This document shows, piece by piece, positions 45,981-64,000 of a stretch of DNA of 64,000 bases. Position numbers and translations under genes: made by a program. The notes beneath the pieces are model-generated. The model ran no database searches. It worked only from the letters and a program-made list of their open reading frames with translations, and was not told the DNA's origin. This DNA is from Aurantiacibacter poecillastricola. GTDB lineage: Bacteria > Pseudomonadota > Alphaproteobacteria > Sphingomonadales > Sphingomonadaceae. Where the stretch lies: NCBI RefSeq assembly GCF_030730945.1, contig NZ_JAVAMS010000004.1:124001-188000 (forward strand), read 5' to 3'. Each line of letters opens with the position of its first letter. Position 1 is the first letter of the stretch.

Positions 45981-46538
45981 CTATTCGCCCGAGCGCAGGG
46001 CCTGCATCTGTGCGCGCCATTCGGCCGGTGTCGGCATTACAGGATAGTCCACGCGGCGCAGGAACTTCCATCGCCCGTCCTCGCGGATAAGCTCGTCCTC
46101 GTAGCGTCCCGCCAGCGCAGGTGTCGGCTCGCCATTGGGGCCGCGCATGATCAACAGGTGCCGCGAATGCGCGTTCGCCCGGTCGCCGTCCACGTCGACT
46201 TCGATGTTGCTCGTGATGTGAAGGCTTTCCCTGTTGACGAAGCCGGGCTCGGGCTCGCCATAGACGCTTACGAGCATGTCCAGGATCGCGTCCGGCCCGC
46301 GATAGACGAGGTCGCCGTTCACCCATTCGCCCTGCTCGGCGAACAATGCCGCGAATGCGGAGAAATCGCGTGCGTCCTGCGCCCGTGAATAGTCTACGAG
46401 CAGGCGCCTGATCGCGAGGTCATCCTCTGCGCGCTGCACGCGTTCTTCCAGCGACAGTTCCCTCTCGCCGTCCTGCGCCACGGCGGGAACGGCGGCGAGG
46501 AACAGCAGGGCCGGAATGGCCGGCAGAAGGCGCATCAT
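45981..46538 (-). CDS. exported NTF2/SnoaL-like protein
   Basis: This is a 185-residue periplasmic protein with the NTF2/SnoaL fold. A Sec signal ends AVA-Q near residue 22, a short coil (SLEERVQRAEDDLAIRRLL) follows and then the conical SnoaL domain with FAALFAEQGEW and LIREDGRWKFLRR. A histidine in NRESLHITSN sits mid-sheet where its two closest relatives (46535 and 52237) also have one. Activity is unknown; the fold includes cofactor-free lyases, isomerases and cyclases. The ATG overlaps the stop of its partner gene as ATGATG. Confidence 0.8.
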   Translation of the reverse strand: MMRLLPAIPALLFLAAVPAVAQDGERELSLEERVQRAEDDLAIRRLLVDYSRAQDARDFSAFAALFAEQGEWVNGDLVYRGPDAILDMLVSVYGEPEPGFVNRESLHITSNIEVDVDGDRANAHSRHLLIMRGPNGEPTPALAGRYEDELIREDGRWKFLRRVDYPVMPTPAEWRAQMQALRSGE

Positions 46539-47080
46539 CGTTCCCCCTCCTGCGCCGAGATCGCCGCTCTCCATTCCGCCGCCGTGGGCATGATGTCTTC
46601 AGCGATGCGGCGAGCGATCTTCCATTGGCCGTCGCGGCGCACGAAGTCGTCGTGATAGATGCCGGTCAGTGCGGGAGTGGGCTCTCCCCGGGGGCCCCGC
46701 ATGACGAAGATGTAGCGCGAGGTCGCCGTCGCCCGGTCGCCATCGAGTTCGATGCGCGGATTGCTGACGAGGTGGTAGTTCTCGGCATTCGGACTGTTTG
46801 CCGGGCCCATGACTCCTTCCAGCATGGCGCGGATATTGGCGCGGCCCCTTTGCCCGCCGCCTTCGGGCTTGGTCCATTCGCCATCGGGCGTGAAGAGGTT
46901 GCTGTAGGCTTCGTAGTCCCGCCGGTCGAGGAAAGCGGCGTAGTCGGCGATGACGCGCCTTATCGCCAGCTCATCCTCCACGCGCTGGACCCGCTGCTCC
47001 AGCGATGCCCTCGCTTCCTGCGCGCTCGCCACAGCCGGCGCGGACGCGAGCAGGGCAGCGATCACGAACGACCTCATCAT
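46535..47080 (-). CDS. exported NTF2/SnoaL-like protein
   Basis: This 181-residue paralogue of the next gene has a Sec signal ending ASA-Q near residue 24, coil SLEQRVQRVEDELAIRRVI, then a SnoaL domain with YSNLFTPDGEW and FVRRDGQWKIARR. The mid-domain His is in ENYHLVSNP. Two adjacent ATGs start it at 47080 with CAGGAGAGTG upstream; the open frame to 47269 is not conserved. It is the first gene of the minus-strand pair, divergent from the TonB receptor across a 373-base spacer. Confidence 0.8.
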   Translation of the reverse strand: MMRSFVIAALLASAPAVASAQEARASLEQRVQRVEDELAIRRVIADYAAFLDRRDYEAYSNLFTPDGEWTKPEGGGQRGRANIRAMLEGVMGPANSPNAENYHLVSNPRIELDGDRATATSRYIFVMRGPRGEPTPALTGIYHDDFVRRDGQWKIARRIAEDIMPTAAEWRAAISAQEGER

Positions 47081-47453
47081 CTCGTCACTCTCCTGTTTCA
47101 GACCATACTTGCCCAGTCTGGATGGGCGAATTGATCGCCTCGGAAACGATGGGCATCGTGCCGGGAAACGGCACATTTGTGGCCTTCTTCTCACCCATCC
47201 GGGCGCCTTGAGCCAGCGGTGAAGAGCAGATTTTCCAGTTCTGGCAACTCGGCCGGCCAATAGGGGCAAGGCGCAAGAACAGGACCAACTGTAATAAGAT
47301 TACACCCTCAAGGCGTCTGCGTTGCCGATAGTTCCGGTGCAGGATTGTTCGAGAGGACGGCCAGAGGCGACCCTCACCGGCAACTGCCAGTACGATCGCC
47401 GCTTCTTGCCGCATAAAAAACAAGCCGGGATATTCCGGCTGGGGAGAGGAAAT
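47081..47453. promoter_or_regulatory. divergent regulatory spacer with palindrome and hairpin
   Basis: This 373-base gene-free spacer separates the SnoaL-like pair (minus) and the TonB receptor (plus). It holds a perfect 15-base palindrome, TGTAAT-AAG-ATTACA at 47290-47304, in otherwise GC-rich DNA. A 6-bp hairpin AGCCGG/CCGGCT (47423-47440, loop GATATT) lies just before the ribosome site GGAGAGGA of the receptor and is preceded by a run of six A. No clear -35/-10 pair stands out. The palindrome looks like an operator, possibly for the cluster regulator. Confidence 0.5.
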
Positions 47454-49988
47454 ATGAGAGACCATTCATGGATTGCGCCGCGGCGCTATCTCCGCACGAG
47501 CCTGCTTGGCGCTACCGCGCTGGGAATGGCCGGCCTCGTACACGCTCCTGCTCTCGCGCAGGACGCCAACGTCAACAACAATGATTCCGCGGTCACGCCG
47601 GAGGACGATCAGGGGCCGGGCAATGTCATCATCGTGACTGCCCAGCTGCGCGAACAGAATGTGCAGGACATCCCCCTGTCCATCACGGCGATCAGCGGCG
47701 ACCTGCTCGAAGCGCGCAGCCAGACCAACCTCACCGAAGTCTCGCAGCAGACCCCGAACCTGCTGCTCCAGCAGAACCCGTCGGGCTCCGGCAACTCGAT
47801 GCGCGCCTTCATTCGCGGCGTCGGCCAGTCGGACTTCAGTCCCTCGGTGGAGCCGGGCGTCGGCATCTATATCGACGATATCTACTTCGGCACGGTCACG
47901 GCCTCGGCCTTCGATCTCGTCGATCTCGACCGTATCGAAGTGCTGCGCGGGCCGCAGGGGACGCTGGCCGGCATGAATTCCCAGGGCGGTGCCATCAAGC
48001 TCTACTCGCGCCTTCCAGAGGGCGAGGGCGGCTACGTCGAGGCGACCATCGGCAACCTTGGCCGCCGCGATTTCAAGGGCAGCGCGGATTTCACCGTGGT
48101 GGACGATGCTGTCTTCGCCCGCCTCACCGGCGTCTATCGCAACCGCGACGGACATGTGACGCGGTACGACTATGCCTGCGTGAACCCGGACGATCCCGAT
48201 GTCGTTGCCGGACGGCTTCCGCGTCTCGCCACTGACGGCGACTGCGTGCTGGGCGAGCTCGGCAACCAGGACGTCTATGCCATGCGCGGAGCCTTGCGCA
48301 TCGCTCCTGGCGGAGGGCCGCTGGAGATCAACCTGATCGGCGACTACACGAACGATCGCTCGAACGTGCAGGCCTCCACCCTCATCGCCAGCGCCGAATA
48401 CACCGGCAGGCAGGGATTGCCGCTGCCCTATCAGGGCGTGGAATACGATCACCGCTTCGTGACCTTCGGCCAGTACCGGCGCAGCGATGCCAAGCTGAAC
48501 GATCCCTATGCCACCTATGCCAACTTCTACGATCCGGGCGTGATGTACGAGGCTGCCGGCGCGCCGGTCGGCCCGCCGTCAACAGCGCCGGCTGGCGATC
48601 CGCTGGGCCCGTTCATTGTCGATCCGCAACAGAAGCTGGAAGCGTGGGGTTTTTCGGGCACCGTCGATTACGACATCAACGATAATCTCGCGATCAAGTC
48701 GATCACCGGCTACCGCAAATACGATAGCGAAAGCGGCAACGACAACGACAATTCGCCCGTCGTCTACATCCAGAGCCAGGGCCTGTTCGAACACGAGCAG
48801 TTCAGCCAGGAAGTACGCCTGAGCGGGGTGTTTCTGGATGACCGGCTGAACTTCACGGTCGGCGGGATCTATTACGATGGCACCAGCCGCTATCTCGACC
48901 GGATCCACACCCCCTTCTCCGGCTTCTGCGCCGCGGCAACGCCGTGCTTCTCCTTCCTGAACGACGATACTGCCGATCTCACGGTCTGGGCGGCTTTCGG
49001 CAACGTCGCGTTCGAACTGGCCGAAGGGCTGACGCTGGAAGGGGGCATCCGCGTAACGGACGAGACGAAGGACTACACGTTCGGGCGGTTCAACCCCGAT
49101 GGCGAGGGCGAATACCTGCCACTCAGCAATCCCAACAACCCGCTCAGCGGACTGACCGACACCTATGCGAAGACGATCGCCGACTATCGCGCGGTAATCA
49201 CCTACGAATGGTCGCCCGAGATCATGACCTACGCGCAGTTCGCCACGGGTCACAAGGGCGGCGGTATCGCGCCGCGACCCTACGACTTCCGGCAGGTGCG
49301 CCCGTTCGGCCCAGAGAAGCTGCGCAACTATGAGGTCGGCTTCAAATCCGACCTGTTCATGAACCGCCTGCGCCTGAACGGTGCCGCGTTCTACATGGAC
49401 TATGTCGACTATCAGGGCATCCCGCAGACCTGCGTGGGCGAGGACGGGCAGCAGCTTCCTCCCGATGGCGGCGGCATCCCGGGCCTGTGCGGCCAGTACC
49501 TCAACGTGGGTGACGCCGAGGTGAAGGGCTTCGAACTGGAGGCCTATTTCGAGCCGGTCGACAATTTCAACATCGATGCGGCTCTCAGCCTCACCGATTT
49601 CGAATTCACCTCGGTGAACTTCCCCACCACGTCCATCCAGGTCGGCTCAAGCCGCCCGGGTATCGGGGAGTGGAAGTGGAGCCTTGGCGCGCAATACGAG
49701 ATCGATCTCGGGGGCGCGGGCACACTCACGCCGCGTGCGGACCTGAACTACACGCCGGGCTATTGCGGCGACTTTGCCTGCACGGCGGAGGCGATCGTGG
49801 ACAGCCGCACGCTGCTGAATGCCCGCCTGACCTATCGCACGCTCGACGAAGACTGGAGCGTGGCTCTCGAGATGACCAATCTCACCGACGAGTTCTACTA
49901 TATCAACAAGTTCTTCAACGCCTTCTACGTCACCGGCCAGCCGGGCCGGCCGCGCGAATACGCGCTGACAGTCAGGCGCAATTTCTGA
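47454..49988 (+). CDS. TonB-dependent outer-membrane receptor
   Basis: This 844-residue outer-membrane barrel imports a ligand using TonB energy. A signal peptide (about 1-32, ending ALA-Q) precedes a TonB-box-like stretch NVIIVTAQLREQ, the plug domain (about 60-190, including IRGVGQS and VEVLRGPQGTL-like LRGPQGTLAGMNSQGG) and a 22-strand barrel ending in the terminal Phe of VRRNF. ATG 47454 follows GGAGAGGA. Ligand is unknown; the surroundings suggest an organic catabolic substrate rather than iron. A bidirectional terminator follows. Confidence 0.92.
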   Translation: MRDHSWIAPRRYLRTSLLGATALGMAGLVHAPALAQDANVNNNDSAVTPEDDQGPGNVIIVTAQLREQNVQDIPLSITAISGDLLEARSQTNLTEVSQQTPNLLLQQNPSGSGNSMRAFIRGVGQSDFSPSVEPGVGIYIDDIYFGTVTASAFDLVDLDRIEVLRGPQGTLAGMNSQGGAIKLYSRLPEGEGGYVEATIGNLGRRDFKGSADFTVVDDAVFARLTGVYRNRDGHVTRYDYACVNPDDPDVVAGRLPRLATDGDCVLGELGNQDVYAMRGALRIAPGGGPLEINLIGDYTNDRSNVQASTLIASAEYTGRQGLPLPYQGVEYDHRFVTFGQYRRSDAKLNDPYATYANFYDPGVMYEAAGAPVGPPSTAPAGDPLGPFIVDPQQKLEAWGFSGTVDYDINDNLAIKSITGYRKYDSESGNDNDNSPVVYIQSQGLFEHEQFSQEVRLSGVFLDDRLNFTVGGIYYDGTSRYLDRIHTPFSGFCAAATPCFSFLNDDTADLTVWAAFGNVAFELAEGLTLEGGIRVTDETKDYTFGRFNPDGEGEYLPLSNPNNPLSGLTDTYAKTIADYRAVITYEWSPEIMTYAQFATGHKGGGIAPRPYDFRQVRPFGPEKLRNYEVGFKSDLFMNRLRLNGAAFYMDYVDYQGIPQTCVGEDGQQLPPDGGGIPGLCGQYLNVGDAEVKGFELEAYFEPVDNFNIDAALSLTDFEFTSVNFPTTSIQVGSSRPGIGEWKWSLGAQYEIDLGGAGTLTPRADLNYTPGYCGDFACTAEAIVDSRTLLNARLTYRTLDEDWSVALEMTNLTDEFYYINKFFNAFYVTGQPGRPREYALTVRRNF

Positions 49989-50042
49989 GCCGGCGCGGGC
50001 GGGGAAACGGCCACGGCCGTTCTTCCCCACCCGTCGGGTCGC

Positions 50043-50089
50043 AAAAAAGAACCCGCAGACCTTTCACGGGTCTGCGGGTTCTCCCTTTC
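50043..50089. terminator. bidirectional rho-independent terminator
   Basis: A perfect 13-bp stem pairs GAACCCGCAGACC (50049-50061) with GGTCTGCGGGTTC (50069-50081) around a 7-base loop. Six A residues (50043-50048) on its left become a U6 tract for transcription on the minus strand, and TCCCTTTCC on its right gives a weaker tract on the plus strand. It sits between the converging TonB receptor and the 50160 gene and ends both transcripts. Confidence 0.85.
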
Positions 50090-50159: not shown

Positions 50160-51083
50160 TCACGGCCACGGCGTCGGCATGTAATAGGGCAGGAACGTCG
50201 CGACGCCTTCGGACCGGACCACTTGGTCCCCCTCGATCTTCACCAGCTCCGCCACGAGGCGGCTCATGGGAAAGGGACGTTCGAGTGTTGCCGTGTGCCC
50301 ACCGGCGGTCCGGAACGTGGTCTGGGAGGCAGGAATGTCCTGCACGCTGATTGCCAGCACCAGGCCGCGCTCGGTATCGACCACGGGGAAGCGGCGATCG
50401 CGGATCCGGTCGACCGGTGCGAACAGACCGGCCTCGAAGACAGACGCGCAATCCTCCTCGTCCGGTTCCACGTCGAGATCGGCCGAGGTGATCTGCACCC
50501 CGTTCTCGATCATGGCGCAGTCCGGTGCAAATTCTGCCAGCAGCGCGCCGTTGTTGCGCTGCTTGGTCGCGAGGTAGGCATTGGCAAGGTCCACCAGCCG
50601 CTCGCGCGGGCGGCGCTGGGCGGCGGGGACCGGCTCCGTCATGGCGGGCGAGAACGCGAACTCGGCCGGCTCGCCGAACACCATCGGCCACGGCGTGCGC
50701 GCGGCGATAACCTCGATCTCCTCGATCCGGCCTTGCGGAGCCTTCAGGCGGACTGCCCCGAACGAGGGCTCGTCGTGATCCCAGATGGTGCCGAACCAGA
50801 CGACCTCTCCAGTCGAAGGATCGGCGAGGGCGAGGGCCTTCTGCCCATCCTCCCCGGTATTCTCGCCCGCCGATCCCCACCACGAATCGCCGATCATCAG
50901 CGAGACGTTGTTCTCGGTGAATAGCACCGGGTCCGCCCACGGCAGGCGGCGATAGTCCTGGTCGCCGATGGCCGCGAGGGTCTCGTCCGCGAGGTCGAGC
51001 AGGCATTGCTTGTCGCAGGACTGCGCATTGGCCGGGGTGGCAGCCAGCATGGCCGCGATGGCGAGCGTGGAAGCAAGGCGCAT
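50160..51083 (-). CDS. exported four-cysteine family protein, type A
   Basis: This is a 307-residue exported protein of a family I cannot name with certainty (it recalls the DUF8021-type proteins of fungi and bacteria). A Sec signal ends ANA-Q near residue 21. Four cysteines sit in CDKQC, DCAMIENG and EEDC, likely as two disulfides. FTENNVSLMIG and the RIRDRRFPVVDTERGLVL segment recur in its relatives. It matches the C-terminal half of the 52825 protein. The ATG shares a base with the stop of the type B gene (TGATG). Function is unknown. Confidence 0.7.
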   Translation of the reverse strand: MRLASTLAIAAMLAATPANAQSCDKQCLLDLADETLAAIGDQDYRRLPWADPVLFTENNVSLMIGDSWWGSAGENTGEDGQKALALADPSTGEVVWFGTIWDHDEPSFGAVRLKAPQGRIEEIEVIAARTPWPMVFGEPAEFAFSPAMTEPVPAAQRRPRERLVDLANAYLATKQRNNGALLAEFAPDCAMIENGVQITSADLDVEPDEEDCASVFEAGLFAPVDRIRDRRFPVVDTERGLVLAISVQDIPASQTTFRTAGGHTATLERPFPMSRLVAELVKIEGDQVVRSEGVATFLPYYMPTPWP

Positions 51084-52051
51084 CACTGGTCTCCCTCCGC
51101 CCAGGGCGAATGCATCCCGTAGGGCACGTAATCGAACACGGCTTCGATGGTATGGATCTTGCCGTCCACGATCTTGAAAGCCTCCATGATCGTCAGCGAG
51201 TTGGGCCACTTCAGCAGCGTTTCCATGGTTCGCCCGTCGGTGAGTTCGTATTCGTCAAAGTAGTTCGCATGGTCGAAGAAGTTCATGCCCACGATGATGC
51301 CGCGCTCCTCATCGATCAGCGGGTAGCGGCGTTCGCGCAGCTGCTTGTTGATGCGATAGATGCCGAGGCGGAATTGCTCCTCGCAGCCCTCTGCGACAGA
51401 GGCGGAACTGTTCGAACCCTCTACCGCGCTGGTGGTGCTGATGCCGTTCTCAAGGCGCGAGCACTCCTCGTGGAAGGGCGCGAAGACGGTACCGTCATTG
51501 TATTCGACCGTGTTGAAGTACGAGTCCGCAAGGGCCCGCAGGCGTGAGCGGGGCGGTCTCTCTTCCTCGGGCATGATTTCCTGCCAGACGGGGCTGTGCG
51601 GTTCGTCGCCGTCTCCGAAGATCAGCGGCATCCCGACGCGCCGCGTCACCACCGTTTCCACCTCGTCGATCTCGCGGTCCCGGTTCACATGCAGGCGGAT
51701 GGCGAGGAAGACGAGGTTGCCATGTTCGTAGGCCTGGCCGAACCAGGCGACATTGCCCGTCATCGGATCGGCTGGCATCATGCCCACCGCGGGATCGGCA
51801 GCGCTCACCGTCGCCCACAGGCCATGGCCGATGGGCATTTCCACGCTGTTCTCGGTGAATTTCACATCATCTGCGAACTGAGCCTGTGAAGGATCCTTCG
51901 CGCCGAGCGCCGCGACATAGGATGTGGCGAAGGATTCCAGGCACGCCCGGTCGCAATCGTCGCGCGGAAGGGCAGTTTCCTCGCCATAGGATTGCGCCGC
52001 AACGGGTGCGGCAAGGGCCAGCCCAAGGGCGGCAGTTGCGCCACGCAGCAT
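51083..52051 (-). CDS. exported four-cysteine family protein, type B
   Basis: This 322-residue exported relative of the 50160 product has a Sec signal ending VAA-Q near residue 21. The cysteines are in CDRAC, EECSRLENG and EGCEEQF. FTENSVEMPIGHGLW, RRYPLIDEERGIIV and FFDHANYFDEYELTDG are its conserved blocks; the FFDHAN block marks type B, and the N-terminal half of the 52825 protein has it too. ATG 52051 has GGGAGAGAAC upstream and starts the signal; the longer open frame is not conserved. It is the first gene of the B-A pair. Confidence 0.72.
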   Translation of the reverse strand: MLRGATAALGLALAAPVAAQSYGEETALPRDDCDRACLESFATSYVAALGAKDPSQAQFADDVKFTENSVEMPIGHGLWATVSAADPAVGMMPADPMTGNVAWFGQAYEHGNLVFLAIRLHVNRDREIDEVETVVTRRVGMPLIFGDGDEPHSPVWQEIMPEEERPPRSRLRALADSYFNTVEYNDGTVFAPFHEECSRLENGISTTSAVEGSNSSASVAEGCEEQFRLGIYRINKQLRERRYPLIDEERGIIVGMNFFDHANYFDEYELTDGRTMETLLKWPNSLTIMEAFKIVDGKIHTIEAVFDYVPYGMHSPWAEGDQ

Positions 52052-52236: not shown

Positions 52237-52821
52237 ATGCGCCACGTCCTGTCCCTTGCCGCCATCGGTCTTGCGCTTTCTGGCTGCGCCGCAAATACCG
52301 TCTCCGACGAATTGGCCCGGCAGGTGCAGGAACTACAGGACGAGAAGGAAATCCGCGAAGTGCTGGTGGAATATGGCGAATTTCTCGATGCCCGAGACTA
52401 CGCCTCCTATGCCTCGCTGTTTGCCAGCAACGGCGTGTGGATCGGCGGCTTCGGGACCTATACCGGACCCGATGCGATCGAAGCGATGCTGGAAGAGAAC
52501 ATGGGTTCCTATCCCGACGACTACGTCAACAAGGAGAACTTCCACCTCAACACCACGATGGTTGTCGACGTGAACGGGGATGAGGCTACCGCACGTTCGC
52601 GCTACCTGTTCTTCACCGCCTCGGACGAGAACCGTCCCGTGGTCGCGCTGGCGGGTCGCTATGTGGACGAACTCGTGCGGGAGGACGGGGAGTGGAAGAT
52701 CCTCACCCGCAAGTCGCACGGCGTCATCCCCTATCGCGACGGCAACGCGCCGCCGCCCGAACGGGCCCCTGCCGGTGTGCCGCAATCGCGTGGTGGCGAG
52801 GACGCAGAGACCCGGGACTGA
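52237..52821 (+). CDS. NTF2/SnoaL-like lipoprotein
   Basis: This 194-residue envelope protein has lipobox LSGC near residues 14-17, a short coil (VQELQDEKEIREVLVEYGEF) and a SnoaL domain with YASLFASNGVW, the mid-domain His of ENFHLNTTM and LVREDGEWKILTR. It resembles the 45981 and 46535 products but is membrane-anchored and on the opposite strand. GGAGAG lies seven bases before the ATG. It is flanked by the divergent type B gene and the convergent fused gene. The role is unknown. Confidence 0.78.
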   Translation: MRHVLSLAAIGLALSGCAANTVSDELARQVQELQDEKEIREVLVEYGEFLDARDYASYASLFASNGVWIGGFGTYTGPDAIEAMLEENMGSYPDDYVNKENFHLNTTMVVDVNGDEATARSRYLFFTASDENRPVVALAGRYVDELVREDGEWKILTRKSHGVIPYRDGNAPPPERAPAGVPQSRGGEDAETRD

Positions 52822-52824
52822 GCG

Positions 52825-54627
52825 CTAGCGCGGCTCCATGCCGTAGGGCAGTTCCGAGGTAATCGCCTCCACCCGCTCGATCTCGCCATTCCTGAAGCGG
52901 AACAATTCCACCACCTGCAGGGTGCGGGGATATGTCTGTGCATCGGCAAAGGTCTCGCCAGAAGCATCGGTGAATTGCTGCCGCGTTGCCGGGAAATCCT
53001 CGTAGGTCGACATGGCGACGAGGCCGCGCTCCTCGTCCACGGCAATTACCTCGCGGTCGCGGACGCGTTCCAGCGGTTGCAACCGCCTTGCAGCGAATGG
53101 CGCCGCGCAAGGCCCGACCGGCTGGCCGTTCAACACCCATTCGCAGCTTTCGGCAAGAGCGCGGGGCGGGCTGCCATCCTGTGCGTTCATGGCAGTGTAG
53201 AACCGGTCGACCGCCTGCAACATCGCGGCCCGCTCCGTTTGCTCGGCCGCAGGAAGCGCGTCGAAGCTGGGCGCGGTTTCGGGCGCGACGTAGGGTGCGC
53301 CGTATTCCTCGCGCCGGATCACCGCCTCGATATGTCCGATGCGATCACCATCGGCCGATACGGTGATACCCGCCCAAGCGGGCTGTCCGTGCTCCTCGAT
53401 CCGCCCGAACCAGAGCGCGCGGCCAAGCTGCTCGTCGGAGATCACCAGCGGATCATCGTCGATGCCGGTGGTCGAGCCCCAGATGCCCTCGTTCACCTGC
53501 ATCCCGACGCTGTTCTCCTCGTAGCCGACCTTCTCGGCCCAGGGCAGGTTCCGCCATTCGCCGCGCGTCGCGTAGGCATTCAGGACCTGGCCCGTCAGTC
53601 CGTTCAGGCATGCCGTGTCGCATTCTTCGGGAGACGATTTAGGCACGGGAGGCGTTGCCGCAGGCCCGGCAAAGGGATTGTGCATGAAATAGGGGACGTA
53701 GGTGAAGACGGCCTCGATACGGCTGATCTTCGCGTCCTTGATGCGGAACGCCTCCAGCAGGGTGATCGAGTTCGGCCATTTCAGCGCGGTGCGCATTTCG
53801 CTTCCGTCGGTGAGCAGGTAGCGATCGAATTCGTTCGCGTGATCGAAAAAGGCGGTGGAGACCACGACGCCGCGCTCCACGTCGATGATGGGATAGCGGC
53901 GTTCGCGAATGCGCTTGTTGATGCGGAATATGCCAAGCTCGAACTGGGCCTCGCACCCGTCTACGCGGGTAAATTCCGAGCCGTCGTCCTGGGCGCTCGT
54001 CGTGGTGCTGATGCCGTTCTCGAGCCGTCCGCAATCCTCGTCGAACGGGGCGAAGACCTGCCCGTCATTGAGCTCGACCGTGTCGAAATAGCTGTCCGCG
54101 ATGGCGCGAAGACGCGGGCGGGGGCGGCGCTGTTCGGGCGGCAGGATCTCGTTGAAATCGGGATCGTGCCGCATGTTCATGGTTTCACCGAAAGGCGCAG
54201 GCAGGTTCGGTTCGCGCAGCACGACCGTCTCGATCTCGTCGATCATGCCATCCTCGACGTGGATGCGCACCGCGAAAATGCCCGGGGCGCCGTTCTCGGT
54301 CATCCCGCCGAACCAGGCGGCGTTCTGGGTCTGCGTGTCTGCAACTTCGAGGCCGGCCGCGTCCAGCCGGTCCACCGTGCCCCACAGGCCTTCGCCGACC
54401 TCGATGGGAACATTGTTCTCGGTGAAGAGGTAGTCGTTCGCGAGTGGCACCAGTGAAGGCGTTCGCACGCGCAGTGCATCGACATATTCGTTGAGTTTGC
54501 CGATCAGGCAGTCGCGGTCGCATTCCAGCTCGTAAACGGCGCTATCTTCGCCCGGGGCCTGGGCTGCGGCGGTGCTGCTGATGCCGATGGTCGCCGCTCC
54601 GGCGAGCAGGAATGGCAGGATGCGCAT
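52825..54627 (-). CDS. exported fused type B + type A four-cysteine protein
   Basis: This 600-residue exported protein is two four-cysteine domains in tandem. A Sec signal (ending AAA-Q near residue 25) precedes a type B half (about 30-320: CDRDC, GEGLWGT, DCGRLENG, FFDHAN). A short Pro/Ser linker (PPVPKSSPEE) follows, then a type A half (about 345-600: CDTAC, NEGIWGS, ESCEWVLNG, VDEERGLVAM). The order equals that of the separate genes 51083 (B) and 50160 (A). ATG 54627 has GGAG upstream; TTG 54633 is also in frame. It lies two bases after the PQQ dehydrogenase gene. Confidence 0.78.
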   Translation of the reverse strand: MRILPFLLAGAATIGISSTAAAQAPGEDSAVYELECDRDCLIGKLNEYVDALRVRTPSLVPLANDYLFTENNVPIEVGEGLWGTVDRLDAAGLEVADTQTQNAAWFGGMTENGAPGIFAVRIHVEDGMIDEIETVVLREPNLPAPFGETMNMRHDPDFNEILPPEQRRPRPRLRAIADSYFDTVELNDGQVFAPFDEDCGRLENGISTTTSAQDDGSEFTRVDGCEAQFELGIFRINKRIRERRYPIIDVERGVVVSTAFFDHANEFDRYLLTDGSEMRTALKWPNSITLLEAFRIKDAKISRIEAVFTYVPYFMHNPFAGPAATPPVPKSSPEECDTACLNGLTGQVLNAYATRGEWRNLPWAEKVGYEENSVGMQVNEGIWGSTTGIDDDPLVISDEQLGRALWFGRIEEHGQPAWAGITVSADGDRIGHIEAVIRREEYGAPYVAPETAPSFDALPAAEQTERAAMLQAVDRFYTAMNAQDGSPPRALAESCEWVLNGQPVGPCAAPFAARRLQPLERVRDREVIAVDEERGLVAMSTYEDFPATRQQFTDASGETFADAQTYPRTLQVVELFRFRNGEIERVEAITSELPYGMEPR

Positions 54628-54629
54628 GG

Positions 54630-56941: not shown

Positions 56942-57901
56942 TTGTCGGAATTGGAACAAGGCGTAACGAGTCCGTTCCTGCCACTTGTCGACCTCGACCA
57001 GGTCGAATGCGAAAACCGCGCCAACAAATGGAAGAGCGCGGTACGCGATTCCTTTCCGAGCCTCTCTGTAAGACTTCCCGGCGGCAGTCCGGCAACGGGT
57101 TCGATTAGCCGGGTGAGCATGGGGTCGGGCGATTTCTTCGAGATCGATTCTGCACCGGCCGATGTCGTCCATACCGCATCGAGCGCGAAGCCCGCCAACT
57201 CGCACATTTCATTGATGGTCCAATCCAAAGGCGCAATCCTCGTGCGGCAGGCGGGGCGATCCGCGCTGCTGGGCAAGGGCGATGCCTGCGTGATCGACGA
57301 GGCGCGCAGTTTCCGCCTTATCGGGGAGGGATGCAGCAAGATCCACTTCCTGCGCATCCCGCGCGCCGCTGCGCTGAGCCGCTATCCGCCGCTGGAAAAG
57401 CTGTTCGTCACGACGTTCTCCTGCGACGATCCGGGCACCAAGATGCTCGCCGAGACGATGCTGCGTTTCAGCGCGGTAGCAGGGACATTGACCGACACGC
57501 AGCGCAACGCGATGACGAACGCCATCATCCAGATGCTCGGCATGGCGGAGCCGTTCATCAGCCAGGAGGCAGCGCCCGACTGGCGTGTGCGCCGCGCGCT
57601 GGATTTCATCGAGCTGAACCTTTCCGTCGCGGGCCTGACAGCAGAGGCCGTCGCCCAGGACCAGCGCATCAGTCGGCGTCGTCTCGATCAGCTCATGCTC
57701 CAGTCGTTCGGCCATTCCATCGCCAGCCACCTGTGGTCCAGGCGACTGGAGCAGGCGGCGGTGGACCTGCGCGATCCATCGCGGGCCGGGCAGTCGATCG
57801 CTCAGATCGCCTTTGCCAACGGGTTCGAGGACGCGGCCCACTTCACGCGCGCATTCAAGCGCCGCTTCTCGCAGACGCCGCGGCAATGGCGGGCTGACTG
57901 A
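56942..57901 (+). CDS. AraC family transcriptional regulator
   Basis: This 319-residue regulator has an N-terminal AraC-type ligand-sensing domain (about 20-190) and a C-terminal double helix-turn-helix (about 215-319). The DNA-binding domain has ISRRRLDQLM in the first helix-turn-helix and IAQIAFANGFEDAAHFTRAFKRRF in the second, the usual AraC/XylS signature. It starts with TTG 56942, six bases after GGAGG. Its position between the two PQQ gene groups makes it the likely regulator of the cluster. The effector is unknown. Confidence 0.88.
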   Translation: MSELEQGVTSPFLPLVDLDQVECENRANKWKSAVRDSFPSLSVRLPGGSPATGSISRVSMGSGDFFEIDSAPADVVHTASSAKPANSHISLMVQSKGAILVRQAGRSALLGKGDACVIDEARSFRLIGEGCSKIHFLRIPRAAALSRYPPLEKLFVTTFSCDDPGTKMLAETMLRFSAVAGTLTDTQRNAMTNAIIQMLGMAEPFISQEAAPDWRVRRALDFIELNLSVAGLTAEAVAQDQRISRRRLDQLMLQSFGHSIASHLWSRRLEQAAVDLRDPSRAGQSIAQIAFANGFEDAAHFTRAFKRRFSQTPRQWRAD

Positions 57902-58045
57902 AAGCCTCCTGCCGTGCGCTCGCAGCGCACCGATTGGGTCAATTCGCGATTCCAGATCGGACCAGCCTTTGTGTTTGCTCGGCAGGACAGGTGCCCTATC
58001 CTGCCGGAAAGTCGCGACAGTCGGCTGCAAATGGAGAGGAGTGCC

Positions 58046-59032
58046 TTGCGCAAGTCCGCAACTGGAATCCCTGCCGGCGCGAGCCGGTGTGCCCTGGCTT
58101 TCATGGCCGCGCTGGCAGGTGCCTGCGCACCCTTGCCCGGCGCCAGCAACGCCGGCGAACCGCGCGATATCCGTATCGCCGGCAGCGGCGTCTATCCCGA
58201 AAGCGTGACCTCCGATTCTGCCGGCAACATCTATGTCGGTAGCATGAGCGGCACCATCTATCGTGCCAGCCCGGGAAGCGAAGTGGCCGTGCCGTGGGTG
58301 CAGCCCAACGAGGCCAATGGGCTGATCTCGCTGTTCGGTGTTCTCGTCGACGAGGAGCACGACCGGTTGTGGACGTGCTCGAACCCCAATTCCTTCGCGC
58401 CGGGCGGCCCGACGGGCGGCTCCAGCCTGGTGGCCTTCGAGCTTTCGACCGGGGAACTGGAGGCGCGCTATCCCTTCCCCGCAGGCCCGGCGGCCTGCAA
58501 CGACATTGCCGTCGCACCGGGCGGAACGGTGTTCGCAACGGAAACCGCGGGCGGGCGAATCTTCAGCCTTGCGCCGGGCGCGCGCGAGTTGGACCTCTTC
58601 GTCAGCGGGGAGGATCTGGTGGGTGTCGACGGCATCGCTTTCGCCGGTGATGGGGCAATGTACATCAACAATGTCCGCTCCAACCGGGTCCAGCGCGTGA
58701 AACGCAGCGCTGATGGGAGCTACGACGGCCTCACCGATCTTGCCCTTTCACAGCCGGTCAGCGGTCCTGACGGCTTGCGGCCCATTGGCGGCAACCGGTT
58801 CCTCCAGGCGGAAGGGTCGGGCGGGCGCGTCGCACTCATTACGGTAGAGGGCGACCGGGCCACGGTTACGCCTATTGCAACCGGCCTCGATTCCTCGCCC
58901 GGCGTCACCCGCGTGGGATCCATCGGCTACGCTACCGAAGGCAAGATCGGATACCTTATCGATCCCGCGCTCCAAGGTCAGGACCCGGGCGATTTCTACA
59001 TCCGCGCCTTCACCCTACCGGAGGGACTATGA
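58046..59032 (+). CDS. SMP-30/gluconolactonase-like exported protein
   Basis: This 328-residue protein has a six-bladed beta-propeller of the SMP-30/gluconolactonase/NHL type. An N-terminal signal with Cys (AGACAPLPG) near residue 29 suggests export and perhaps lipidation. YPESVTSDSAGNIYVG, PAACNDIAVAPGG, GVDGIAFAGDGAMYINN and SGPDGLRPIGGNRFLQ carry the acidic and Asn positions used for metal binding in lactonases. The start is probably TTG 58046, after GAGAGGAG; ATG 58031 is an alternative. It begins the plus-strand operon and overlaps the next gene by four bases. The lactonase role is inferred. Confidence 0.72.
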   Translation: MRKSATGIPAGASRCALAFMAALAGACAPLPGASNAGEPRDIRIAGSGVYPESVTSDSAGNIYVGSMSGTIYRASPGSEVAVPWVQPNEANGLISLFGVLVDEEHDRLWTCSNPNSFAPGGPTGGSSLVAFELSTGELEARYPFPAGPAACNDIAVAPGGTVFATETAGGRIFSLAPGARELDLFVSGEDLVGVDGIAFAGDGAMYINNVRSNRVQRVKRSADGSYDGLTDLALSQPVSGPDGLRPIGGNRFLQAEGSGGRVALITVEGDRATVTPIATGLDSSPGVTRVGSIGYATEGKIGYLIDPALQGQDPGDFYIRAFTLPEGL

Positions 59033-59730
59033 AACACTTCCTGCTGCTCGCCCCGCTGCTCGCGCTAACGCCGCAGCCCGCTTTCGCGCAGAGCGCGCTC
59101 GACCGCGAGATTACCGAGCTTACCCAACGTGTCGAACGGCTGGAGGGCGGACGCGCGGTGAAGAAGCTGCAGCGCGCCTTCGGTTTCTACATCGACCGGG
59201 GCTTATGGGGAGAGGCGGCCGACCTGTTTGCCGATAACGGCACTATCGAGATCGGTCTCGACGGGGTCTATGTGGGACCGGAAAGGATCGAGGAATACCT
59301 GCGCCGCCTGCATGGGGGACAGGAAGGCCTCGTCTACGGACAGCTGAACGAGTGGATCACCCTGCAGCCGGCCATTTCGGTCGCAGAGGATGCGCAAAGC
59401 GCGACCGCTCGCTGGCGAGACCAGGGCATGCTGGGGCAGCACCGGGAGCACGCGGAGTGGCGCGACGGCGTGTACGAGAACACCTATGTGAAGGAAGATG
59501 GGGTGTGGAAGATCCAGTCCCTGCACCTGTTCGTCAATTTCGTCGCCCCGTTCGAGAAAGGCTGGGCGCGGCTGGATCCGGGCGAGGGCTTGACCCGCAG
59601 CCAGACGTCGATCGACTATCCGCCTGATAGCGGGCCGACGGTCGAGTACCAGCCGTTTCCGGCAGTACAGATCCCCGCCTTCCAGGCGCCCAACCCGGTG
59701 ACGGGCCGCGCAGTAGAGGGGGATCTGTGA
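59029..59730 (+). CDS. exported NTF2/SnoaL-like protein, long type
   Basis: This 233-residue periplasmic protein has a Sec signal ending AFA-Q near residue 20, a coil (ITELTQRVERLEGGRAVKKLQRAF) and a SnoaL domain with FYIDRGLWGEAADLFADNGTIEIG and YVKEDGVWKIQSLH. The C-terminal 55 residues extend beyond the fold and end in NPVTGR, as in its three downstream relatives. In the position where those have NHM it has NEW. ATG 59029 overlaps the preceding stop. The activity is not known. Confidence 0.8.
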   Translation: MKHFLLLAPLLALTPQPAFAQSALDREITELTQRVERLEGGRAVKKLQRAFGFYIDRGLWGEAADLFADNGTIEIGLDGVYVGPERIEEYLRRLHGGQEGLVYGQLNEWITLQPAISVAEDAQSATARWRDQGMLGQHREHAEWRDGVYENTYVKEDGVWKIQSLHLFVNFVAPFEKGWARLDPGEGLTRSQTSIDYPPDSGPTVEYQPFPAVQIPAFQAPNPVTGRAVEGDL

Positions 59731-60485
59731 TGCGCAAACACGCTCTTGTTTTCGTCGCGGCACTCTCTCCGCTCATGATCGCGCTGCCCGCATCGGCACA
59801 GTCGCTTGAGGACCGTGTCGCGCAGTACCGCGAACGCGTCGAACGGCTGGAGGACCAGGCGGAGATCGAGAACCTCACCGCTACCTTCGGCTACTATTTC
59901 GACAAGGGGCTGTGGGATGAAGCGGCTTCCCTCTTCGCCGACGAGGGGGCATTCGAATACGAGCAGAGCGGCGTCTATATCGGGCAGGACCGGATCGAGC
60001 GGGCGATGCACATGCTGGGGCCGCAGGGTCTCGCTCCGGGCTACCTCAACAACCACATGATGCTTCAGAACGTCATCTATGTGGCGGAGGATGGTCGCAC
60101 GGCGACGGGCCGCTGGCAGGGTCCGATCATGCTGGCCGAGCCCAACGCCAACGGCCAGTGGGCGGTAGGTATCTACGAGAACGACTACGTCAAGGAAGAC
60201 GGAGTCTGGAAGTTCGACAAGCTGCATTTCTACCTGACCGCAAAGACGGACTACGACAGGCCCTGGCCACAGGGCTCCATCCCGATGCGAGGCATGAGCG
60301 CGGTATTCCCGCCGGACGAGCCGCCAACGGAAGTCTACCGCTCCTTCCCCGGTGCCTACATCCCGCCCTTCAGCTTCGATCACCCGGTGACCGGCGAACC
60401 GCTCACCGATCTGCCGATGGCGGGCGACGATGTGACCGGCCGCGAGGAAATCCCCTTCACCGGCCATATCGAGGGGGGTGAGTGA
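59730..60485 (+). CDS. exported NTF2/SnoaL-like protein, long type
   Basis: This 251-residue second copy in the array has a Sec signal ending ASA-Q near residue 23, coil VAQYRERVERLEDQAEIENL, then YYFDKGLWDEAASLFADEGAFEY, NNHMMLQN and YVKEDGVWKFDKLHF. The C-terminal extension has PPDEPPTEVYRSFPGAYIPPF and HPVTGEPL. It starts with ATG 59730, sharing a base with the previous stop; GTG 59727 is also in frame. It is coupled to both neighbours. Confidence 0.8.
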   Translation: MRKHALVFVAALSPLMIALPASAQSLEDRVAQYRERVERLEDQAEIENLTATFGYYFDKGLWDEAASLFADEGAFEYEQSGVYIGQDRIERAMHMLGPQGLAPGYLNNHMMLQNVIYVAEDGRTATGRWQGPIMLAEPNANGQWAVGIYENDYVKEDGVWKFDKLHFYLTAKTDYDRPWPQGSIPMRGMSAVFPPDEPPTEVYRSFPGAYIPPFSFDHPVTGEPLTDLPMAGDDVTGREEIPFTGHIEGGE

Positions 60486-61270
60486 TGCGCAGCGCTCGCC
60501 TTGGTATCGCCGCGGCGATGCTGATCTCCAGCTCGGCGCCTGCTGCAGCCCAGTCCGCCGCCGAAAGGCTCGACGCGCTGGACGAGCGGATCACCCGGCT
60601 CGAGGACATGAACGCGATCGAGCGGGTGCAGCGCACTTACGGCTATTTCGTGGACAAGAGCCAGTGGACGCCGCTCGCGGAACTCTTCACCGAGGATGCA
60701 ACGCTGGAGATCGGCGGCAAGGGTATCTTCCTTGGCCGTGACCGGGTCCTCGAATACATGCAGACCGCGTTCGGGCCCGATGGCGCGAAGGCAGGGCTTC
60801 TGGCCAACCACATGCAGTTCCAGCCCATTCCCGACATCTCGGAGGACGGACAGACCGGCTGGATGCGCGCCCGTGCCTATGTGATGAGCGTGGGCTGGGG
60901 CCTGCCGCTTTATGAAAACGAATATGAAAAGGGCGAGGACGGCCAGTGGCGCATCAGCCGCCTGACCGGGCCTTTCACCATGTATACCAGCTGGGAGGGC
61001 TGGGGCGAATACGGCATGAACAACACGTGGCCGGACAAGTTCGATCCGCCGCCCGATCTGCCGCCCTCGGTCGTTTATCTGACCTATCCCGCCTATTACA
61101 TCATACCCTATCACTACCCCAATCCGGTAACGGGAGAGCCCTTCATTCCCGATACCGGCGAGGTGGGGGCCTATCATCGCCCGCCGGGGACCGCGGAACA
61201 GGCGGAATCCCTGCGTGTGGGCCGGATGGCGAACGGCACGCAGCCCATCGCCGAGCCGCCGAGGGACTGA
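60485..61270 (+). CDS. exported NTF2/SnoaL-like protein, long type (duplicate pair)
   Basis: This 261-residue third copy has a Sec signal ending AAA-Q near residue 24, coil RLDALDERITRLEDMNAIERVQ, YGYFVDKSQWTPLAELFTEDATLEIGG, NHMQFQP and a C-terminal extension with DLPPSVVYLTYPAYYIIPYHYPNP. It is very similar to the next gene through most of its length, more than to the two upstream copies, so the pair is a recent duplication. ATG 60485 shares a base with the previous stop. The role is unknown. Confidence 0.8.
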   Translation: MRSARLGIAAAMLISSSAPAAAQSAAERLDALDERITRLEDMNAIERVQRTYGYFVDKSQWTPLAELFTEDATLEIGGKGIFLGRDRVLEYMQTAFGPDGAKAGLLANHMQFQPIPDISEDGQTGWMRARAYVMSVGWGLPLYENEYEKGEDGQWRISRLTGPFTMYTSWEGWGEYGMNNTWPDKFDPPPDLPPSVVYLTYPAYYIIPYHYPNPVTGEPFIPDTGEVGAYHRPPGTAEQAESLRVGRMANGTQPIAEPPRD

Positions 61271-61274
61271 TCCC

Positions 61275-62069
61275 GTGCGCGTGTCGACAATCCTGCTGCG
61301 CGCCGGGCTGGGCCTTACAGCTATTTTCGCAGCGCCCGCCGCCCTGGCGCAGAGCGTGAGCGAGCGGCTCGACGCGCTGGGCGAGCGGATCGATCGGCTG
61401 GAGAGCATGAACGACATAGAGCGGCTGCAGAACAGCTACGGCTATTTCGTCGACAAGGCGCAATGGACGCCGCTTTCCGAACTATTTGCCGAGGATGCGA
61501 CACTGGAGATCGGCGGCAAGGGCATTTATGTCGGGCAGGACCGCGTGCTCGATTACATGCAACTGTCCTTCCGGCAGGACGGCATCGTGCCCGGTGTGCT
61601 CATCAATCACATGCAGTTCCAGCCCATTATCGACATTTCGGAGGACGGCACACGCGGATGGGCCCGCAGCCGCGCCTATGTAATGGCGAACGAGAGCTGG
61701 GGCCTGCCGCTCTACGAGAACGAATTCGTCAGGGAAGACGGAGTGTGGAAGATCGCGCGCCTGACAGGGCCTTTCACCATGTACACCAACTGGGAGGGGT
61801 GGGGCGAGTTTGCGCTCAACAACACCTGGCCCGACAAGTTCGGCCCTCCGCCGGACCTGCCGCCTTCGGTCGTCTACCTGACCTATCCCGCCTATTACAT
61901 CATCCCCTATCACTACCTGCATCCCGTGACCGGCGAGGTTTTCCGCCCCGATATGGGCGAGGTCGGCGCATATCATCGGCCACCCGGCACGCCGGAGCAG
62001 GAGGCCGCACTGCGAACCGGTCGTACCGTTCACGGCGACCAGCCGATTTCCCAGCCCACGGAGGACTGA
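61275..62069 (+). CDS. exported NTF2/SnoaL-like protein, long type (duplicate pair)
   Basis: This 264-residue fourth copy has a Sec signal ending ALA-Q near residue 28, coil RLDALGERIDRLESMNDIERLQ, YGYFVDKAQWTPLSELFAEDATLEIGG, NHMQFQPIIDI and the same PAYYIIPYHY extension as its neighbour. The start is GTG 61275, nine bases after GAGGG; GTG 61281 is an alternative and the open frame to 61215 lies inside the previous gene. Four bases separate it from each neighbour gene. The role is unknown. Confidence 0.8.
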   Translation: MRVSTILLRAGLGLTAIFAAPAALAQSVSERLDALGERIDRLESMNDIERLQNSYGYFVDKAQWTPLSELFAEDATLEIGGKGIYVGQDRVLDYMQLSFRQDGIVPGVLINHMQFQPIIDISEDGTRGWARSRAYVMANESWGLPLYENEFVREDGVWKIARLTGPFTMYTNWEGWGEFALNNTWPDKFGPPPDLPPSVVYLTYPAYYIIPYHYLHPVTGEVFRPDMGEVGAYHRPPGTPEQEAALRTGRTVHGDQPISQPTED

Positions 62070-62073
62070 CCGC

Positions 62074-64000
62074 TTGTTTCGTAAATTCAAAATGATGCCG
62101 CCGGCGCGAATGGTCGCAGCGCTGTTTGGCATACTGGCACTCGCCGCCTGCGCTACCGCCATGGTCGAAAGCGACGGCGACTGGCTTTCCGCGCACAGCG
62201 ACGAAGCCGATGTTTGGCTGAGCGACGGGCGCACCTATGCAGCTCAGCGTTACAGTCCGCTGACGCAGATCGATGCTGGCAATGTCGATCAGCTCGGCAT
62301 CGCCTGGTACGACGATTACGACACCTATCGCGGTATCGAGGCGACCCCGCTTTATGCCGACGGGGTGCTCTACAATATCCTCGCCTGGAACATCACCGTC
62401 GCCTATGACGCGCGGACGGGCGAAAGGCTGTGGACCTTCGATCCGGAAGTTCCCCGCGAGATGGGCCGATATGCCTGCTGCGAGCCAGTCTCGCGCGGGC
62501 TGGCGCTGTGGGAAGACAAGGTCATCATCGCCACGCTGGACGGGCGGGTAATGGCTCTGGACCGCGCCACCGGCGACACCGTCTGGTCGACGCAAACCTT
62601 CGACCACGAGATGCCCTATACGATCACGGGCGCGCCGCGCGTGTTCGACGGGAAGGTGGTGGTCAGCCAGTCCGGCGGCGATCTCGGCGTGCGCGGGTTT
62701 GCCATCGCGCTCGACGTGGATACGGGCGCAAAGCTGTGGAAGTTCTATCTTACGCCCAATCCGACGGGCGAACCGGATAGCGCCGCTTCCGACCCGATCA
62801 TGCCGATGATACGCGAAACCTGGTCGGACGAGGGAATGTGGAAGGACCTTGGCGGCGGTGCCAATGCCTGGGATTCCATTGCCTACGATCCGGAGCTTGA
62901 TCTCGTCTATGTCGGCACCGGCAACGGTTCGCCACTGGCCTGGCAGCATCGCAGCAATGGCGAGGGGGACAATCTCTTCGTCTGCTCGATCGTCGCGCTC
63001 AACGGATCGGACGGCAGCTATGCCTGGCACTACCAGATGGTGCCGGAGGAAGACTGGGACTACACCTGCACCAGCTCCATCGTAAGCGCCGATCTCGAGA
63101 TCGATGGCGAGATGCGCCAGGTCATCATGCAGGCGCCGAAAAACGGCTTCTTCTACGTGCTGGACCGCGCGACCGGCGAATTGATCAGCGCCGAAACCTA
63201 TGTGAAAGTGAACTGGGCCAGCGGGATTGATACCGAAACGGGCCGCCCCGTCATCAATCCTGAAGCACATTACGGCACCGATCCGGTGCTGGTCTATCCG
63301 GGGCCGGGCGGGGCGCATAACTGGTTTCCGATGGGCTACAGCCCGCGCACGAAGCTGGCCTATTTCCCCGCATACCAGTCGGGCATGGTCTACGCTCTCG
63401 ATCCCGATTTCGAGCCGACTCCCTTTCGCTCCAACGCCGGTTGGGGCGGCTATAGCGGCGACGCGCTGGAAGAGCGCCAGCGGCTGATGGAACAGGCCAA
63501 CGCCGACGAAAAGGCCTGGCTGGTTGCCTACGATCCTGTCCGGCAGCGTATCGCCTGGCGCCACGAACTGCCGCGCCACGGCAATGGCGGGGTGATGATC
63601 ACGGCCTCCGATCTCGTGTTCGAGGGGACAACCCACCAGACCTTCGCCGCCTTCGATGCGCGGACCGGGCAGGAGCTATGGTCCTTCCCCATCCAGAGCT
63701 CGCCCGTTGCGGGGCACATTACCTACGAGCTGGACGGCGTGCAGTATATCGCGGTGAACGCAGGCTGGGGCGGCGGAGCGGCGGGCGTCGAGCGTTCGAT
63801 GGGTATCGATAGGCCGCGTGCCCCGGCGCGCTTGGTCGTGTTCAGGCTGGGAGGCGATGTACAACTCCCACCCCTTGCCGCGCAGGAGCCGGTTCCCTCG
63901 CCGCCGCGCCTCACCGCGACCGAGGCGGAGGTCAGCCGCGGGGCGCAGCTTTATGCGCAGACCTGCGCCACCTGCCACGGCCGGAACGCGGTTGGCGGCG
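62074..64000 (+). CDS. PQQ-dependent quinohemoprotein dehydrogenase, cut by window end
   Basis: This is a second PQQ enzyme, 642 residues visible and still open at the window edge. A lipoprotein signal with LAAC near residues 23-26 is followed by the propeller: ACCEPVSRG (adjacent-cysteine disulfide), GTGNGSPL (metal site), the catalytic Asp in DWDYTCTSS and APKNGFFYVLDR. The heme motif CATCH begins the C-terminal cytochrome c domain just before the end. Thr lies two residues after the catalytic Asp, again not the lanthanide type. The start is TTG 62074, nine bases after GGAGG; ATG 62092 is too far from it. It is the last seen gene of the plus-strand operon. Confidence 0.88.
   Translation, partial: MFRKFKMMPPARMVAALFGILALAACATAMVESDGDWLSAHSDEADVWLSDGRTYAAQRYSPLTQIDAGNVDQLGIAWYDDYDTYRGIEATPLYADGVLYNILAWNITVAYDARTGERLWTFDPEVPREMGRYACCEPVSRGLALWEDKVIIATLDGRVMALDRATGDTVWSTQTFDHEMPYTITGAPRVFDGKVVVSQSGGDLGVRGFAIALDVDTGAKLWKFYLTPNPTGEPDSAASDPIMPMIRETWSDEGMWKDLGGGANAWDSIAYDPELDLVYVGTGNGSPLAWQHRSNGEGDNLFVCSIVALNGSDGSYAWHYQMVPEEDWDYTCTSSIVSADLEIDGEMRQVIMQAPKNGFFYVLDRATGELISAETYVKVNWASGIDTETGRPVINPEAHYGTDPVLVYPGPGGAHNWFPMGYSPRTKLAYFPAYQSGMVYALDPDFEPTPFRSNAGWGGYSGDALEERQRLMEQANADEKAWLVAYDPVRQRIAWRHELPRHGNGGVMITASDLVFEGTTHQTFAAFDARTGQELWSFPIQSSPVAGHITYELDGVQYIAVNAGWGGGAAGVERSMGIDRPRAPARLVVFRLGGDVQLPPLAAQEPVPSPPRLTATEAEVSRGAQLYAQTCATCHGRNAVGG

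Follow-up and report, generated by a model that had tools for sequence, protein, structure and literature searches.

The last 18 kb (positions 45981-64000) of a 64,000-nucleotide window from Aurantiacibacter poecillastricola contains a cluster of fifteen genes (G01-G15), nearly all of which encode exported proteins. This cluster is a real conserved unit, and it is larger than was seen in an earlier note based on inspection of the same DNA. We suggest tentatively that it could well encode the outer steps, located in the periplasm, by which phenylpropanoid aromatic dimers or oligomers of the lignin or lignan type are degraded. This reading is based upon a lignostilbene dioxygenase present in all eight genomes that carry the cluster, dioxygenases in at least four of 56 cluster loci, the pairing of DUF8021 and pyrroloquinoline quinone (PQQ) dehydrogenase genes in loci of the pin (pinoresinol) type, and likeness to the lyase LdpA (35-39% identity). 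In what follows two-digit G numbers are genes, three-digit G numbers are genomes and L numbers are loci.

Inspection of the N-termini confirmed that 13 of the 15 products carry export signals. These are seven SnoaL_4 proteins, three four-cysteine proteins, two PQQ/haem dehydrogenases and one propeller. Nine (G01, G02, G04, G05, G07 and G11-G14) have a Sec signal with A-x-A or V-x-A before Gln, and four (G06, G08, G10 and G15) have a lipobox-like cysteine. The remaining two genes are those the earlier note had named, i.e. a TonB-dependent receptor (G03, 47454..49988, plus strand), which matches the Pfam plug and barrel and also has a signal, and an AraC-family regulator (G09, 56951..57901, plus strand; HTH_18 E 1.5e-17, AraC_binding_2 E 6.9e-14). 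All seven proteins claimed to be NTF2-like match Pfam SnoaL_4, with E values between 5e-21 and 6e-33. On the minus strand G01 (45981..46538; E 4.5e-28, AVA before Q) overlaps G02 (46535..47080; E 5.6e-33, ASA before Q). On the plus strand are the lipoprotein G06 (52237..52821; E 3.6e-30, lipobox LSGC) and the consecutive genes G11 (59029..59730; E 8e-26), G12 (59730..60485), G13 (60485..61270) and G14 (61275..62069), of which G14 is a paralogue of G13 (71% identical, same tree clade). The genes from G10 through G11, G12, G13 and G14 to G15 form a tight unit with gaps of -4 to +4 bp. The pair G07-G08 is separated by 2 bp, while G04-G05, like G01-G02, overlap. The cluster continues beyond the window edge; the end of G15 is at 64236, and 30 bp beyond it another SnoaL_4 gene, G16, occupies 64267-64779.

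A strict signal heuristic flagged 119 of 1252 unrelated genes in the fetched loci, where an earlier looser one had flagged more than a third. It flags nine of the 13 window products, missing the lipoproteins G08, G10 and G15, and G11, whose hydrophobic stretch contains a Gln. The NTF2 proteins look exported in other genomes too, and not cytoplasmic; the heuristic is positive for 30/50 orthologues of G11 type, 34/53 of G12 type and 36/51 of G13 type, compared with 0/19 LdpA-like relatives encoded elsewhere. The starts of the orthologues were called by script, which accounts for false negatives among them. Most lipoproteins are missed (3/26 of G08 type and 16/42 of G15 type are positive); the other positives are 16/34 of G10 type, 14/23 of G07 type and 6/15 of G03 type. 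A separate localisation label follows a rough rule, by which five proteins with an N-terminal Cys pair, including G05 of the window, were labelled as non-exported.

Searches with five markers covered one set of 296 genomes of the order, and the score bands were set after seeing the gaps in the lists. The top band of every marker comprises exactly the same eight genomes (DUF8021, with G05 as query, at E <1e-100; G13 at 431 bits or more; G10 at 277 or more; G03 at 1223 or more, the next best being 617; G15 at 936 or more, the next being 750). Weaker relatives are more widely distributed, occurring by their own cut-offs in 20 genomes for DUF8021, 36 for G13, 49 for G10, 22 for G03 and 152 for G15. 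One of the eight is Sphingobium sp. SYK-6 (locus L175), the model degrader of lignin dimers. A scan of named genomes using an alignment of G13 gave 56 loci, 18 of which hold less than 18 kb. Among these G11 is found in 45, G12 in 46, G15 in 34, G10 in 27, DUF8021 in 26, G08 in 18, G09 in 13 and G03 in 10, and every core gene (G03, G07, G08, G10-G13 and G15) is present together in five (L154, L156, L166, L169 and L171). Judged by record title, these loci come from Erythrobacteraceae, Sphingobium, one metagenome-assembled genome of the Caulobacteraceae and gammaproteobacterial metagenome-assembled genomes. The set is therefore conserved as a unit, as the earlier note required of its proposal.

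The same data bear on whether there is a single pathway at all. A TonB-AraC, a DUF8021-PQQ and a propeller-NTF2-PQQ module acting on different compounds might be adjacent by chance, but this is very improbable given the identical distribution over eight genomes, the five loci with all core genes, and a fused DUF8021-propeller gene in seven loci (called in pieces in one, L173). Separate modules would fit their location on different contigs in G019, G100 and G030, although all are present in each. They would also fit the result of a search for a common AraC operator over five intergenic regions, where the best 18-mer scored 49 compared with 46-49 in twelve shuffles, i.e. nothing beyond chance. 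A shared operator between the cluster promoters was accordingly rejected.

The LdpA-like proteins G11-G14 have the SnoaL_4/NTF2 domain followed by the C-terminal extension of the LdpA/PcfL gamma-formaldehyde lyases, and align with LdpA over their full length including that extension. Identity to SYK-6 LdpA is 39% for G12 and 35% for each of G11, G13 and G14. Among the solved relatives of G13, those scoring best are structures of LdpA (PDB 8abv, E 7e-20); the name comes from the identity of 8abv with the SYK-6 ldpA product over the stretches shown. Entries 8abt and 8abu are distinguished by a His97-to-Gln change. In G12-G14 the His-Asp pair looks catalytic. The histidine matching LdpA His97 is kept in 41/41 rows of G12 type, 46/46 of G13/G14 type, 3/3 of LdpA and 21/21 of the small NTF2 proteins, and the aspartate of the His-Asp pair is kept in all the NTF2 groups aligned. 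By contrast with LdpA and PcfL, which belong to the sphingomonad beta-1 and beta-5 lignin-dimer pathways and occur in the same organisms, G11-G14 are exported and are present as three to four paralogues in tandem. In its available part, a 2026 review on the breakdown of lignin dimers by bacteria classes both LdpA and PcfL among the NTF2 deformylases, and gives a count of 62 NTF2 homologues in SYK-6 (PMC12997858).

The invariance of the His-Asp pair in the G12, G13/G14 and small NTF2 groups argues against a non-catalytic role, in which the NTF2 and DUF8021 proteins would be binders or scavengers shielding the periplasm from reactive products of the PQQ enzymes (quinone methides or aldehydes). 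We regard such a role as improbable, while noting that it would account for the many paralogues for few steps, for the absence of the histidine from G11-type proteins (40/40 rows), and for the mild effects of deletions upstream of pinX in Novosphingobium rhizosphaerae LY, described in the accessible part of PMC12607616.

A lignostilbene dioxygenase scoring at least 550 bits (a cut set after seeing the gaps in the list) is present in 24 of the 296 genomes, comprising 8/8 with the cluster and 16/288 others (Fisher p 5.5e-10, uncorrected for kinship). Relatives are also encoded in at least four of the 56 cluster loci (L153, L168, L184 and L191), in L184 only 18 bp downstream of G15. The L153 protein passes the NCBIfam LigStilDioxAlpha cut-off and that of L191 the NOV2 cut-off; those of L184 and L168 are below both, yet are clear members of the RPE65 family. 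The L168 enzyme has a twin-arginine-like N-terminal stretch, whereas by eye the other three have no signal. The data fall short of the earlier note's proposal that the substrate is processed entirely in the periplasm, since the neighbouring dioxygenase lacks an export signal in three of the four loci. Tannase/feruloyl-esterase and molybdenum-oxidase genes on the flanks of four cluster loci also favour the lignin/lignan reading.

In SYK-6 the main module occupies 1327.6-1338.7 kb and is followed after about 23 kb by the block running from ligC (1361 kb) to lsdA (1370 kb) and ldpA (1378 kb). The orthologue of G03 (983.0-985.6 kb) is about 11 kb away from a pair of DUF3237 genes, which are phcF/phcG by gene order. 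Gene names were assigned from gene order against the locus-tag table in the accessible part of PMC12997858, and Pfam confirmed the DUF3237 pair and two dioxygenases. In the open-access papers searched, using locus tags estimated from gene order, no function was reported for the SYK-6 module, and six locus-tag stems gave no match in PMC7376174. The SYK-6 TonB-receptor genes are covered by a published microarray with 11 lignin-derived compounds, according to the part of that report available (PMC6874591). We note separately that about 9-13 kb upstream of the module, in L051, two genes (2004-4049 and 5609-7609) encode long NTF2-type proteins of 681 and 666 aa with signal-like N-termini, with an MFS-like transporter gene between them.

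The four-cysteine proteins, listed in the earlier note as a family apart from the NTF2 proteins, are present as described, but are not separate. They are assigned to DUF8021 (PF26061) from the annotation of homologues of G05 (51083..52051, minus strand), and in a model have a tandem NTF2 fold. PF26061 is present in the precomputed annotation of the 120 listed of 556 G05 homologues, including P0001 that is 96% identical to G05; the local Pfam copy gave no match to DUF8021, nor any family match for G04 (50160..51083, minus strand), which has four Cys and is 33% identical to G05. G07 (52825..54627, minus strand) is a double DUF8021 protein of 600 aa, with two stretches matching G05 at about residues 12-319 (54%) and 334-597 (26%). 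The AlphaFold2 model of G05 (pLDDT 88) contains two NTF2-like domains in tandem, with the cone-shaped alpha+beta fold, supported by Foldseek and VIA-align matches; the second half was barely tested by the latter. The best Foldseek matches (about 325 columns) are the tandem-NTF2 polyether epoxide hydrolases Lsd19 and MonB. These differ in being biosynthetic, with 8-10% identity and a low whole-chain TM-score (about 0.3). No paper naming DUF8021 was found in the open-access literature searched, and we report here the tandem-NTF2 architecture predicted for DUF8021 and the linkage of these proteins to PQQ dehydrogenases. As a side observation, a signal-less DUF8021 gene in L057 adjoins a gene resembling zinc-type alcohol dehydrogenases and quinone reductases, near a ClpA-like gene (Pfam, L057 alone); the size pattern is repeated in L063, L077 and L078, and is similar in L076 and L083.

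The best fold matches of the G05 model include ketosteroid isomerase, epoxide hydrolases and polyketide cyclases, NTF2-fold enzymes from outside lignin pathways, and no aromatic-specific enzyme is encoded within the cluster itself. Both would fit the same exported chemistry, i.e. PQQ-dependent oxidation and rearrangement or dehydration by NTF2 proteins, acting on a terpenoid, sterol, flavonoid or polyketide from plants or algae. We think such a substrate possible but on balance unlikely, in view of the association with lignostilbene dioxygenases and pin-type loci, and of LdpA being the best-scoring solved relative of G13.

The association with pin loci emerged from 32 fetched non-cluster DUF8021 loci, chosen from search results (L061 and L142 overlap, and the pairs from G171 and G273 are near copies). 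Queries for PinX, PinW, PinV and aldehyde dehydrogenase were taken from L059 and those for NOV2 and PinZ from L084, so that both loci match themselves. A PQQ dehydrogenase is also present in 12 of the 32, and these hold PinW-like (11), PinV-like (11, at a weak threshold of 40 bits), PinX-like (9), aldehyde dehydrogenase (9), NOV2-like dioxygenase (8), PinZ-like (7), G03-type TonB (5) and LdpA-like (4) genes. For comparison, 21 fetched loci without DUF8021 have PinX-like genes in 3, NOV2-like in 3, PinW-like in none, PQQ in 5, TonB in 7 and LdpA-like in 6. The gene order in L059 is DUF8021, PQQ, PinX-like, PinW-like, PinV-like. In strain LY the genes R9J51_00390 and R9J51_00395, upstream of pinX, have pinoresinol-specific fitness effects in a transposon screen, and deletion of R9J51_00390 decreased growth and left metabolites unchanged, as given in the part of the paper available (PMC12607616). 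From synteny with L059 these are perhaps the PQQ and DUF8021 genes.

The fetched pin-type loci, which resemble the pin locus of strain LY, share with our cluster the DUF8021-PQQ pair, sometimes with a G03-type TonB receptor and LdpA-type NTF2 proteins. They differ in that the DUF8021 and NTF2 proteins of pin loci are signal-less, and that the window cluster has no gene of PinX, PinW, PinV, PinZ or PinU type; family searches of the window proteins found no PinX (DUF3237), PinW flavoprotein or PinV cytochrome. The host has a pin-like locus of its own (L014, G000:C1:107000-126900) with a PQQ dehydrogenase, PinZ-like, PinW-like (508 bits) and PinV-like (42 bits, weak) genes, DUF8021, a NOV2-like dioxygenase and an aldehyde dehydrogenase.

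Both dehydrogenases exceed the TIGR03075 cut-off of 480 bits, in agreement with their original description as PQQ/haem enzymes; G08 (54630..56828, minus strand) scores 578 and G15 (from 62074, plus strand) 549. They match PDB 1kv9 with E 4e-203 and 3e-178 respectively. In G08 WDFTATQ is aligned to WDFTCTQ, with CC and CxxCH kept; the Asp of the WDF/WDY motif is catalytic in PQQ dehydrogenases. Like the type II quinohemoprotein alcohol dehydrogenases (PDB 1kv9, 1yiq, 1kb0), G08 and G15 have the PQQ propeller with its site residues, the vicinal Cys pair, the WDF/WDY motif and a C-terminal haem c domain with CxxCH. They differ in having lipoprotein anchors, and in being two paralogues in one NTF2-rich cluster. 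PqqC was matched in none of the eight cluster genomes, and PqqE only below the cut-off in all eight; for neither was any control genome above the cut-off, and a sample of 147 genomes of the order gave six weak PqqC matches, none above it. This suggests that the cluster genomes lack their own PQQ synthesis despite several PQQ enzymes each, and so depend on outside PQQ; we word this as a suggestion because the controls too fell below the cut-off. Elsewhere in the host, L011 (G000:C1:925000-944900) has genes for an LdpA-clade protein (L011 13859-14587) and, within a few kb of it, for a PQQ dehydrogenase with 51% identity to G15, and L012 and L013 (G000:C23:55000-94000) have five more quinoprotein-like genes within about 20 kb.

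G10 (58031..59032, plus strand) had been described as an SMP-30-like propeller. Its sequence likeness to SMP-30 is weak, but the predicted fold is consistent with this; the AlphaFold2 model is a confident six-bladed propeller (pLDDT 88), matched by SMP-30, NHL and designed propellers alike. SMP-30 lactonases use Glu, Asn and Asp as metal ligands, and in G10 residues E57, N157, D200 and D247 are invariant in 19 aligned sequences.

From these observations we infer a possible order of events, probably under the regulation of G09. The TonB receptor G03 would carry the compound across the outer membrane. The lipoprotein dehydrogenases G08 and G15 would then oxidise side-chain alcohols, passing electrons via their own haem to the respiratory chain. 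The exported NTF2-fold enzymes G12-G14, G01, G02, G06 and G16, and perhaps also G11 and the DUF8021 proteins G04, G05 and G07, might split off water, formaldehyde or CO2 in cofactor-free eliminations, or catalyse an isomerisation, to give a conjugated, stilbene- or butadiene-like product; the SnoaL_4 enzymes other than G11 would use the His-Asp pair for this. The propeller G10 may open a lactone or ester, after which the product would cross the inner membrane and be cut by a lignostilbene dioxygenase encoded elsewhere. The earlier note knew of no described pathway of this composition, and none was found within the open-access literature searched.

The putative lignin connection, for which the earlier note had offered the fold of a diarylpropane lyase, is the part most strengthened by our evidence. 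Several observations weigh against the lignin/lignan reading. The window cluster contains no aromatic-ring enzyme, dioxygenase or inner-membrane transporter. The eight genomes represent three genera, with G171 and G273 almost identical by score, and counts over them are therefore not independent; within genus g1 the dioxygenase is present in 4/4 compared with 1/4 (p 0.14). Relatives of the dioxygenase are common in sphingomonads (112/296 genomes at E 1e-40), so that its presence in four of 56 loci is modest. The G11-type proteins have replaced the histidine throughout. A tree of 64 rows, which carries a long-branch warning and does not include PcfL, places G11, G12 and G13/G14 outside LdpA in three clades of their own, making them relatives rather than members or orthologues of that group; the nearest neighbour of the G13 clade is signal-less (support 93/84), which implies more than one gain or loss of export. 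Taken alone, DUF8021 has no diagnostic value, since 20 of the 32 loci have no PQQ dehydrogenase, and 13 of these 20 have none of the markers; the remainder include NOV2-like (6), LdpA-like (4), aldehyde dehydrogenase (4), PinX-like (4), PinW-like (1), PinV-like (1) and TonB (1) genes. The DUF8021 proteins of pin-type L059 and L084 are 41-42% identical to G05 and have no signal. Lastly, in the accessible part of PMC12607616, deletion of R9J51_00390 and R9J51_00395 left growth of strain LY on pinoresinol possible, with polar effects suggested by its authors.

A broader proposal, which we hold to be doubtful, is that in sphingomonads including SYK-6 the lignin or lignan oligomers that are too large or polar for the inner membrane have a route of their own in the periplasm. 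It would combine TonB import, quinoprotein oxidation, exported cofactor-free NTF2 and DUF8021 lyases making stilbene-type bonds, an exported dioxygenase in some lineages (L168) and PQQ from neighbours. The word stem "periplasm" is absent from the available part of the lignin-dimer review (PMC12997858). If the proposal is true, the exported SYK-6 module would bridge the gap that separates the attack on lignin outside the cell from dimer catabolism in the cytoplasm, and would provide a first function for exported DUF8021 proteins and for part of the NTF2 homologues of SYK-6. It is directly testable in this tractable strain.

The neighbouring genes raise the possibility of a sugar-linked phenolic substrate (a lignin-carbohydrate or glucuronate conjugate, or a feruloyl or sulfate ester), where the cluster would handle the aglycone after its release by a periplasmic esterase, glycosidase or sulfatase. 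Neighbour families were tallied only where present in at least four loci. Glucuronate isomerase (UxaC) and a mannitol-dehydrogenase-type reductase adjoin the module in L157, L179, L187, L196 and L135, with part of the set in L172. Tannase/feruloyl-esterase relatives occur in five loci (L149, L152, L162, L165 and L168, checked by Pfam in L168). In the host, sulfatases adjoin the cluster. Each neighbour family is lineage-limited, however, and we give a sugar-linked substrate little chance.

The sulfatases lie beyond the window (G000:C29, about 191.3-204.8 kb; L009 5341-18761), where there are five, with a formylglycine-generating-enzyme-like gene, a GH3 gene, a LacI regulator and a major facilitator superfamily (MFS) transporter. 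None was found in the 56 cluster loci at 100 bits or more (there was one 78-bit match, in L183), nor in the G257 stretch. The gap between G16 and the adjacent TonB gene G17 contains two CAACGTTG palindromes, LacI-like by eye, so that G17 probably belongs to the sulfatase block and seems to form a unit distinct from the cluster. On these grounds both G17 and the sulfatases were dropped from the pathway. Further left within the window (18900-28716) there is a cell-wall and division cluster, with genes that by eye are FtsW-, MurG-, MurC-, MurB-, Ddl-, FtsQ-, FtsA- and FtsZ-like, so that housekeeping genes are present in the same window as the exported cluster.

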